Shown here piece by piece: positions 49,017-50,585 of a stretch of 64,000 nt of DNA (position 1 is its first letter; each line of letters begins with the position of its first letter). The stretch spans positions 864,356 through 928,355 of the forward strand of contig NZ_LN648875.1 of NCBI RefSeq assembly GCF_000826185.2, read 5' to 3'. The notes below the pieces were generated by a model. The model saw only the letters and a program-made list of their open reading frames with translations. It was not told the origin of the DNA and made no database searches. A program made the translations under genes and the position numbers. The stretch comes from Microbacterium gorillae. Its GTDB lineage: Bacteria > Actinomycetota > Actinomycetes > Actinomycetales > Microbacteriaceae.

Positions 49017-50585
49017 ATGTTCATCGTCCCCACCGACGTCGTGCTGGCGACCGACTCCGCTGATCTGGAGCCGGCCCGCGCGCAGGCGCAGTCCTGGCGG
49101 TCCCCGCACATGGGAATCGCGGAGAAGCACCTCACCGCCGGCGCGCTGCGTGACCTCGCCGACACCGGGGTTCGCGTCGGTGATGCGTCCTTCACCCGGA
49201 TGGTCGCCGCGGTCCAGGCCGCCCGGGCGGGGGACTTCGCGCCCATTCCGCACATCGATGCCGCCCGGGAGATCTTCCTGGCGTTCCTGCGCGCGGAGCG
49301 GATCGACGGGTGGCTGTACGTCCGGGAACCGGACGGCTACCTGCATCCGTACCTCGTGGTCGAGATCACCCTGGAGCAGGCCGATCGCACACGCGGTCCG
49401 CGGATCAAGTTCACGATGGAGGCGGACAACCCCACCGTAAAACGTCCGTCCCGAGCGCCGCGCCTGCTCTTCTTCGAGGACACCGAGATCGCCGGCAAAA
49501 CCCCGGCGGAGATCCTCACCGCGCACGGCGCGTACCGCGAGACACCCGGGCTGCGCGCGGAGTACGCCGCCCGTCGAGCCGAGTTCGAGCGGGTCATCGA
49601 GAGCGGTTTCGGGCAGCAGTTCCGCTTCACCGGGCACGCGATCCGCACCGACGACTACCGTTCGGCCAACGACCGCACCGATCGCAAGGTCGTCCATGAC
49701 GTCGCGCCCACCGAGATCGCCCCGCTCCGCGTCGTCGCGCCGTCTCCGCTCTGGGACGACGGTGAGGTGGCGCCGGTCCCGGTGGTCACCGCCGTCCGCG
49801 TGTTCGACCTCGCCACCCAGGACTTCCTGGACGTGAACACCGGCGATCTCACCGCATACGTCTACGATCCGGCACTCACGCAGAAGCTGATCCTGCCCGA
49901 CGAGCAGCGCGAGCTCCTGGACATCCTGACGACCGACATCGGCGTGTTCACCGGTGACATCGTGGCCGGCAAGTCCGCCGGCAACGTCATCCTCGCCCGC
50001 GGGCGCCCCGGTGTCGGCAAGACGCTCACCGCCGAGGTGTACGCCGAAGCGGTCGGACGTCCGCTCTACTCGATCCACACCGGGTCACTCGGCAGCACGG
50101 CGGAGTCGGTGCGCAAGAACCTGGAGGAGATCTTCACCCGCGCCAAGCGCTGGGCCGCGGTCCTGCTGCTGGATGAGGCGGACGTCTTCGTCCAGGTGCG
50201 GCGGTTCGACCTCGCCCAGAACGCGATCGTCGCCGAGTTCCTGCGCACGCTGGAGTACTACGACGGTCTGCTGTTCCTCACGACGAACCGCGTCGACGAC
50301 GTCGATGAGGCGATCCTCGCGCGGTGCGCGGCGATCATCGACTACGACGTCCCCGACGCCGACGCGGCGCGGCGCATCTGGGAGCTGCTCGCGGCCGGCC
50401 ACGGGATCGATCTCCCGACCGGCCTGACGGCTGAGCTGGTCCGACGCTTCCCCGCCATCACGCCCCGCGACATCAAGATGGTCCTCCGCCTCGGGCTGCG
50501 CATCGGCGCCCACCGCGAACGGACCCTCGAGCTCCAGGACTTCATCGACGCCGCTCGGTTCCGCGGGGTCCACGCCCGGGAGTGA
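49017..50585 (+). CDS. AAA+ ATPase of unknown role, encoded within the cat operon
   Basis: A 522-residue cytosolic protein. Residues 1-310 have no domain I recognise (it begins [40 protein letters not shown] lies in the middle). Residues about 315-520 are a classic AAA module: Walker [21 protein letters not shown], Walker [17 protein letters not shown], sensor-1 [18 protein letters not shown], and a helical lid ([16 protein letters not shown]). It sits between catC (10 nt) and catA (77 nt), all on one strand. Roles such as iron loading, activation or repair of a pathway enzyme are conceivable but nothing in the sequence proves any. It is not ClpX, FtsH or a sigma-54 activator. Confidence 0.85.

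Follow-up and report, generated by a model that had tools for sequence, protein, structure and literature searches.

A AAA+ ATPase gene linked to one type of catechol 1,2-dioxygenase in Actinobacteria and its possible role as a CatA remodelling factor

In a stretch of 64,000 nucleotides from Microbacterium gorillae (contig NZ_LN648875.1, positions 864,356 to 928,355 of the forward strand; the whole stretch is called the window here), a gene for a AAA+ ATPase lies within a cluster of catechol degradation genes. In this study, we found that relatives of this gene occur together with one type of catechol 1,2-dioxygenase (CatA) in Gordonia and a few other bacteria. With about an even chance, the protein serves one CatA lineage as a dedicated remodelling factor driven by ATP. 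This reading is based on three observations: the gene is located near catA in several gene orders, its presence tracks one CatA type, and the protein combines a conserved motor with a specialised N-terminal region. To our knowledge, intradiol catechol dioxygenases are generally regarded as stand-alone enzymes.

The ATPase gene and the cat gene cluster of the window

The following features were assigned in the cat gene cluster (positions of the window):

47608..48714, + strand: catB, muconate cycloisomerase (MR_MLE; PF13378, E 1.7e-50; PF02746, E 7.5e-14)
48719..49006, + strand: catC, muconolactone delta-isomerase (PF02426; TIGR03221, 143.4 bits, cut-off 130.6)
49017..50585, + strand: AAA+ ATPase gene (from the open reading frame listing; ATG start, 522 amino acids)
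50613..50637, + strand: GC-rich hairpin of 11 bp in the gap between ATPase gene and catA, not followed by a T run (from folding)
50663..51535, + strand: catA, catechol 1,2-dioxygenase, the putative client (TIGR02438, 461.6 bits, cut-off 404.4)
51602..52378, + strand: pcaD-like 3-oxoadipate enol-lactonase gene (TIGR02427, 212.8 bits, below the cut-off of 255.85)

All genes are co-directional in the order catB, catC, ATPase gene, catA and pcaD-like gene, with gaps of 10 bp between catC and the ATPase gene and of 77 bp between the ATPase gene and catA. An earlier note on this DNA had placed the ATPase in series between catC and catA, and the identity of both neighbours was confirmed by TIGR03221 and TIGR02438. 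For catB, the best NCBIfam match was TIGR02534 with 155.4 bits, which is below its cut-off of 334.95. The ATPase open reading frame has a coding-like base composition, and it is not a chance frame since full-length relatives with 67–71% identity to the window protein are found near catA in Gordonia.

The open reading frame listing gives 50582 as the first position of the catA frame, and the ATG at 50663 was chosen as start because it is preceded by AAGGAG and yields an N-terminus resembling that of relatives. The window CatA matches 3hgi (E 2.7e-100), and according to the alignment with this structure it retains Y170, Y204, H228 and H230 at the iron-ligand positions, where these residues presumably have the ligand roles they have in R. 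opacus CatA. With these positions retained, the enzyme itself does not look crippled. The region of the hairpin (50613–50637) folds no better than shuffled sequences (z −1.09, not significant), and a consensus scan of positions 47500–52500 yielded no promoter-like or terminator-like sites.

Also, further oxidoreductase genes are present in the window. A copper amine oxidase and a flavin amine oxidase are encoded 3′ of the cat genes (53926–57522), followed by an aldehyde dehydrogenase (58000–59445, − strand), which perhaps serve in aromatic amine catabolism. Luciferase-like and other flavin-dependent oxidoreductases are encoded besides the amine oxidases. Two different Rieske ring-hydroxylating oxygenase alpha subunits are located at 22059–23228 (+ strand) and 24850–26193 (− strand), a count obtained from part of the window's genes.

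Linkage of the ATPase gene to catA and to one CatA type

A contig scan of 84,980 species yielded 12 named Gordonia loci of the ATPase gene with identities of 67–70%, all with a catA match nearby. Exceptional among them are L008, which has only a part of catA, and L004, in which catA is 1.7 kb away. These loci belong largely to the same species as the 59 Gordonia genomes surveyed separately and were not added to the counts. Among the 59 genomes, 27 carry the ATPase gene, in all 27 with a stop-free open frame and within 6 to 1704 bp of a catA, and the catA match is near full protein length in 26 of these (G572 being the exception). Three gene orders were observed. The ATPase gene follows catA on the same strand in 13 genomes (with catC upstream of catA in 12, not in G572), both genes are arranged tail to tail in 10, and the ATPase gene precedes catA on the same strand in four. 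In L004, the tail-to-tail locus with the widest gap, a gene for a luciferase-like monooxygenase (9791–10816) lies between the two.

Outside of Gordonia, the window adds the order catB-catC-AAA-catA, and G128, a genome of the same taxonomic order as the window, adds AAA-lysR-catB-catA. At the latter locus (L046:6007-10610) no catC match was found near catB-catA, and the muconolactone isomerase may be encoded elsewhere in this genome. A plasmid of Rhodococcus pyridinivorans carries catA-AAA with heavy-metal genes upstream. Within its 185,470 bases no catB match was obtained, while one catA match confirmed that the search performs on this sequence. On the ATPase tree, the five gene orders plus the state "unlinked" need six changes compared to a least possible number of five, which suggests about five changes of gene order, some at weakly supported forks of a tree that carries a warning of long branches meeting. 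Such repeated changes of gene order indicate that the nearness to catA outlived rearrangement. The earlier note had named a survey of gene neighbourhoods as a test that could overturn its proposal; the survey gave a strong link, and with catA in particular.

For the distribution of CatA types, the 59 Gordonia genomes were searched with CatA (E ≤ 1e-20), thereby 40 genomes were matched and 19 were without CatA. CatA of the window type was found in 28 genomes (79–86% identity over the match, including the remnant in G572), and 27 of these 28 have the ATPase. It is present in none of the 12 genomes having only other CatA types (best identity 63–66%; 63–70% by another aligner) and in none of the 19 genomes without CatA. 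To compare the cat proteins, 11 linked loci (two from the same genome) and 12 unlinked loci were used. Identity to the window CatA is 79–81% for linked and 63–70% for unlinked Gordonia, whereas the respective ranges hardly differ for CatB (54–58% and 53–57%) and CatC (63–70% and 63–68%). The statement of the earlier note that catABC operons normally contain no ATPase holds for the cat loci sampled, as no ATPase relative was found within 12–15 kb around catA of the 12 other-type Gordonia genomes and of two relatives of the window, G093 and G102. These two belong to a survey of 148 genomes related to the window, of which six have a CatA match at E ≤ 1e-30, namely the window's own genome, G128, G093, G102, G095 and G135. 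The ATPase is present only in the window's genome and in G128; it is missing in G093 and G102, with CatA identities of 64% and 61%, and in G095 and G135, which have distant CatA-like genes (35–37%).

In a CatA tree of 46 rows, a branch with a support of 97/99 divides 15 unlinked rows from 29 linked rows, G570 and G093. For this tree, rows alike in residues 41–200 were merged (from 88 to 46) and short matches were omitted, so that G572 is not included. In a smaller CatA tree, a 94/98 branch separates the unlinked Gordonia and G102 from the linked Gordonia, the window and G128. The unlinked G093, with a long branch, lands on the linked side in both trees, and in one CatA tree the window is placed at a fork with 36/21 support, yet outside of the unlinked Gordonia group. 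The CatB tree shows a 100/100 branch between the window, G128 and G093 on one side and all 24 Gordonia rows, linked and unlinked alike, on the other, with G102 among Gordonia. Long branches occur in the trees for G093, G102 and G128, and inner forks are partly weak. The two CatA types are separated by 24 residue positions and two gap columns, and seven of these residues are among the first 28; the other-type CatA proteins are mostly near-identical rows, which limits this comparison.

The ATPase was apparently transferred among bacteria along with one CatA type. Judged from gene content and trees, catA and the ATPase gene behave as a two-gene module, and the simplest reading is that the pair moves into cat operons with otherwise native genes, thereby replacing the resident catA.

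An ATPase kept in cat operons might also act as a regulator or on another client such as CatB or LysR instead of CatA. LysR genes are located near most linked loci examined, and pairwise distances of the AAA protein correlate at least as well with those of CatB (r 0.94) as with those of CatA (r 0.84; 13 loci, two from the same genome). This mirror-tree correlation gives no preference for CatA over CatB, as would be expected if species history made up most of the signal. On the other hand, the presence of the ATPase sorts with CatA and not with CatB or CatC, the R. pyridinivorans plasmid has catA-AAA without a catB match, and its 21.6 kb stretch is not among the matches listed for two Gordonia LysR queries. 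We therefore regard a regulator or another cat-operon client as improbable.

Two of the 28 Gordonia genomes with window-type CatA deviate from the pairing and count against the remodelling factor. In G570 (L117, 5674-7993), a window-type catBCA is present and no ATPase gene. This genome offers a natural comparison for the role of the ATPase. In G572 (the Gordonia sputi sequence of L008; L067), an intact ATPase gene lies beside a truncated catA of which the last 116 residues are left (L008:7594-7932). Here, catB, catC and the lysR end are missing in a contig free of N runs, and the genome yielded no further CatA at E ≤ 1e-20; the truncation is either a recent deletion or an assembly error. The loci of G128, in which lysR and catB intervene between the ATPase gene and catA, and of L004 with its intervening luciferase-like gene also speak against this role. 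Since CatA occurs without the ATPase in 12 Gordonia genomes, G093 and G102, the ATPase is not required for CatA as such.

As a further client, the Rieske oxygenase had been suggested in the earlier note. A relative of the Rieske gene of Gordonia oryzae (L009) is present in 10 of the 12 named Gordonia loci and was not found in L006 and the short L012. It was also not found in the stretches around the G128, R. pyridinivorans and G570 loci, and the two Rieske proteins of the window are about 30% identical to it. The Rieske oxygenase was therefore rejected as a conserved partner. The window's own two Rieske genes, obtained from scans of part of its genes, are about 23–27 kb away from the ATPase gene. 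The proposal of a factor that maintains aromatic ring cleavage, putatively by iron loading, reduction or reactivation, was a good lead given the strong link to catA, while the part concerning the Rieske oxygenase is not supported.

Domain structure and relatives of the ATPase

The ATPase was divided into the following regions and motifs:

49017..49301, + strand: N-terminal mainly helical region, residues 1–95 (AlphaFold2 secondary structure; 16 clade-specific conserved residues)
49302..49544, + strand: first beta module, residues 96–176, including an 18-residue clade-specific stretch (22 clade-specific conserved residues)
49545..49868, + strand: helix and second beta module, residues 177–284 (25 clade-specific residues)
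49938..50576, + strand: AAA+ module, residues 308–520 (VIA-align to p97 N-D1; PF00004)
50001..50024, + strand: Walker A, GRPGVGKT, residues 329–336 (G329, G332, G334, K335 and T336 invariant in alignments A1 and A2)
50079..50105, + strand: pore loop 1 region, residues 355–363 (alignment)
50160..50183, + strand: Walker B, VLLLDEAD, residues 382–389 (E387 and D389 invariant, D386 invariant or nearly so)
50322..50324, + strand: R436, arginine-finger region (invariant; alignment to p97-type chains)
50466..50468, + strand: R484 in PRDIK, sensor-2-like position (invariant)

PF00004 (AAA) matches residues 326–442 with an E-value of 4.7e-17 and 63.1 bits compared to a cut-off of 21.2. The intact Walker A/B AAA module described in the earlier note for the 522-residue protein agrees with this match and with the conserved motifs. 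For membership in the PF00004 family, a score above the gathering cut-off, Walker A, Walker B, sensor 1 and the arginine finger were all found, and N424 is conserved in the family alignments. The position of R484, which we take to be sensor-2-like, aligns opposite the S of GSDL in Rix7. The AAA+ part superimposes on p97 N-D1 (5dyg) with a VIA-align Z of 18.2 over 228 residues (rmsd 3.5; model range 285–517).

The AlphaFold2 model of the whole protein, built with 20 sequences, has a mean pLDDT of 87.9 and a pTM of 0.79. In this model, the second beta module adjoins the AAA ring and is preceded by the helical part and the first beta module; modelled alone, the N-terminal region reached a pLDDT of 78.1. 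No Pfam match at E ≤ 1 starts before residue 321. Foldseek gave no match for the N-terminal region in the PDB at E ≤ 0.001. Residues of about 191–282 weakly resemble KOW/SH3-like barrels (VIA-align Z 7.3, 51 residues, rmsd 1.8), in a comparison that hardly extended to the helices and the first beta module. Searching 296 genomes with the N-terminal alignment A3 matched two, both with the known full-length proteins. Residues were counted as clade-specific if at least 96% of 30 linked proteins share them and no more than 20% of 17 unlinked relatives have them; the L136 copy of AR9 was left out. By this definition, 63 of 129 conserved residues are clade-specific in residues 1–284 versus 23 of 158 in residues 285–522. 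To judge from these alignments, the motor is common to the family and the N-terminal region is specialised in the catA-linked clade.

The AAA fold is shared with p97/CDC48, Rix7, FtsH and Rpt at an identity of about 20%. The window ATPase differs from these modules by the lack of an aromatic residue in pore loop 1, by Arg at the sensor-2-like position and by its N-terminal region. Threading AAA unfoldases of the FtsH, p97 D2 and Rpt type have an aromatic-hydrophobic pore loop 1, and partner ATPases of the proteasome or ClpP are marked by an HbYX end or a protease-docking loop. In 22 aligned rows, no aromatic residue was found between residues 352 and 363, so the window ATPase lacks this feature of threading unfoldases. 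As p97 D1 is also without a pore-loop aromatic, the absence is compatible with threading. The C-terminal tails of the aligned rows contain no HbYX. These features bear on the possibility that the protein is a quality-control unfoldase which recognises damaged CatA and passes it to a protease. The p97/Rpt-like AAA+ module and the annotation of a phage relative as "ATP-dependent protease" fit such a role. Pore loop and tails would argue against it, and Pfam revealed neither a protease domain in the ATPase nor a protease among the scanned neighbours, which makes this explanation hardly probable. The AAA module is also related to that of the anti-phage ATPase IetA (NCBIfam NF042959, 43.2 bits; PADLOC IetA, E 6.4e-14). 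However, the assignment fails, because the NF042959 cut-off is 510 bits, only the AAA part is matched, and the scanned neighbours include no protease gene.

The best PHROG match was phrog_29662 (E 6.2e-83 with the window protein), named ATP-dependent protease, which is matched by all 20 members of alignment A2 and covers two stretches of the window protein, the best being 257–519. Bacillus phage AR9 gp082, annotated likewise, belongs to the same family. The AR9 protein is 34.8% identical over residues 89–521 and is without most of the N-terminal residues specific to the catA-linked clade. Unlike the window gene, the AR9 gene adjoins holin, virion, recombinase and RNA polymerase genes. In total, 26 phage records were matched at E ≤ 1e-5, six of them covering at least 80%, with 34.8% identity in the AR9/PBS1 group. 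An alignment scan of IMG/VR matched 23 contigs, and a single-sequence scan matched none of the viral contigs.

Besides the Rhodococcus plasmid, 156 plasmid records contain relatives (E ≤ 1e-20). Of the resulting 157 records, 151 cover at least 80% of the query and 78 are from Citrobacter; at this coverage, the identities are 33–48% among the matches listed. The plasmid "ATP-binding proteins" WP_341857463.1 and WP_099866661.1 (enterobacteria including E. coli; Xanthomonas) are 41% and 46% identical near full length, and their genes sit beside ParA/ParB or near RepA without annotated cat genes in the stretch. As the alignment with plasmid and phage proteins runs over nearly the full length, the homology is not confined to the AAA module and extends into the N-terminal region. 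Five annotated neighbourhoods (Frondihabitans, Xanthomonas and E. coli plasmids, AR9 and a Rhizobium phage) contain ParA/ParB, RepA, DnaB, RNA polymerase and many hypothetical proteins, and no annotated dioxygenase, which speaks against the remodelling factor. The family is widespread on large enterobacterial and Xanthomonas plasmids and in AR9/PBS1 phages. Copies at L078:9989-11620, L077:7872-9500 and L079:5710-7356 carry no annotation beyond "ATP-binding protein" or "ATP-dependent protease". The copy on the Frondihabitans plasmid (L076:10001-11549) is interrupted, with a three-piece match annotated as separate genes.

The family is rare in the cellular genomes of our surveys. In the 148 relatives of the window, matches at E ≤ 1e-30 were obtained for three genomes, those of the window, G128 and G080. 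The G080 protein, from another species of the window's genus (about 50% identity), is the nearest outgroup to the catA-linked clade, and its locus contains no catA, catB or catC match in 19 kb. On the class level, 51 of 394 genomes gave matches at E ≤ 1e-15; full-length relatives are limited to G000 and G279, and the other genomes match in the AAA module or little more. A phylum survey gave two of 396 genomes at E ≤ 1e-60, and in the family containing Gordonia, 20 of 351 genomes were matched, all in one genus. The catA-linked ATPase was probably recruited from a AAA+ family otherwise located mainly on plasmids and in phages.

An origin from mobile elements raises the possibility of a hitch-hiker, i.e. 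an ATPase that became the neighbour of a transferred catA by chance and plays no part in CatA function. The plasmid and phage relatives fit, as do the presence of the pair on the Rhodococcus plasmid and the intact ATPase gene beside the truncated catA in G572. However, the frame is free of stops in 27 Gordonia genomes with motifs and N-terminal region conserved, catA stayed near through about five order changes, and the ATPase is missing only once among 28 genomes with window-type CatA. A mere passenger is thus very unlikely.

Possible function and significance

For the dedicated remodelling factor, the following mechanism can be envisaged. The ATPase would form a hexamer, and the N-terminal region with its helices and two beta modules would bind CatA, perhaps at the N-terminal tail of CatA, although the tail as contact is a guess. 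ATP hydrolysis would then remodel CatA rather than thread it for destruction. As to the purpose, our guess is the rescue of CatA that is inhibited or has lost or oxidised its iron, as rubisco activases serve rubisco. Such a remodelling factor could clear dead-end complexes, allow the replacement of lost or oxidised iron, or aid first assembly. In our judgement, reactivation ranks first, with iron loading or assembly next, as the occurrence of catA in 12 other Gordonia genomes and in G570, which have no ATPase gene, makes an accessory rescue likelier than an essential maturation.

The rubisco activases (Rca, CbbX, CbbQO) offer a possible analogy as AAA+ motors dedicated to one metabolic enzyme. 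A precedent for reactivation is given by the CbbQO rubisco activases (PMC4660213). Like the genes of enzyme-dedicated activases, the ATPase gene has remained beside that of a single putative client. CbbQO has a VWA adaptor, whereas none was seen beside the window ATPase among eight scanned proteins from catB to 57.5 kb (cat genes, ATPase, pcaD-like protein and the next three scanned).

Another possible analogy is NorQ/NorD, a MoxR AAA+ protein with a VWA partner in the maturation of a non-heme iron enzyme. According to PMC9976466, NorQ/NorD drives the insertion of the non-heme iron FeB into nitric oxide reductase. Following this precedent for AAA+-dependent insertion of non-heme iron, the ATPase could be an assembly or iron-insertion chaperone that opens new CatA to load or seat ferric iron. 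The genetic evidence for it is the same as for the remodelling factor. Against it, no VWA gene was present among the eight proteins, and CatA of 12 Gordonia genomes and G570 does without the ATPase. Also, the four Pfam matches of the ATPase at E ≤ 1 do not include PF07726, which we take to be the MoxR-type AAA_3 model, so that by Pfam the protein is not of the MoxR kind, unlike NorQ, RavA and CbbQ. An iron-insertion chaperone is therefore unlikely, albeit worth considering.

Going beyond the remodelling factor itself, a plasmid- or phage-type AAA+ protein may have been domesticated as the first ATP-driven reactivase or maturase of an intradiol dioxygenase, moving between actinobacterial orders with one CatA lineage as a two-gene module and displacing the resident catA. 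To this wider scenario we assign somewhat less than an even chance. In the open-licence literature, the scope of our search with subscription papers mostly outside, no AAA+ protein tied to CatA or another intradiol dioxygenase was found among the papers listed. While AAA+ partners dedicated to one metabolic enzyme have precedents, none came to our notice for the client, the source AAA+ family or the two-gene mobility.

If one CatA lineage owns a motor, a failure of CatA in the cell by inhibition, iron loss or misassembly may exist that has not yet been measured, and the paired ATPase would be a direct handle on it. It would also be the first known use for a widespread family of plasmid and phage ATPases, and it might aid muconate production, which depends on CatA.
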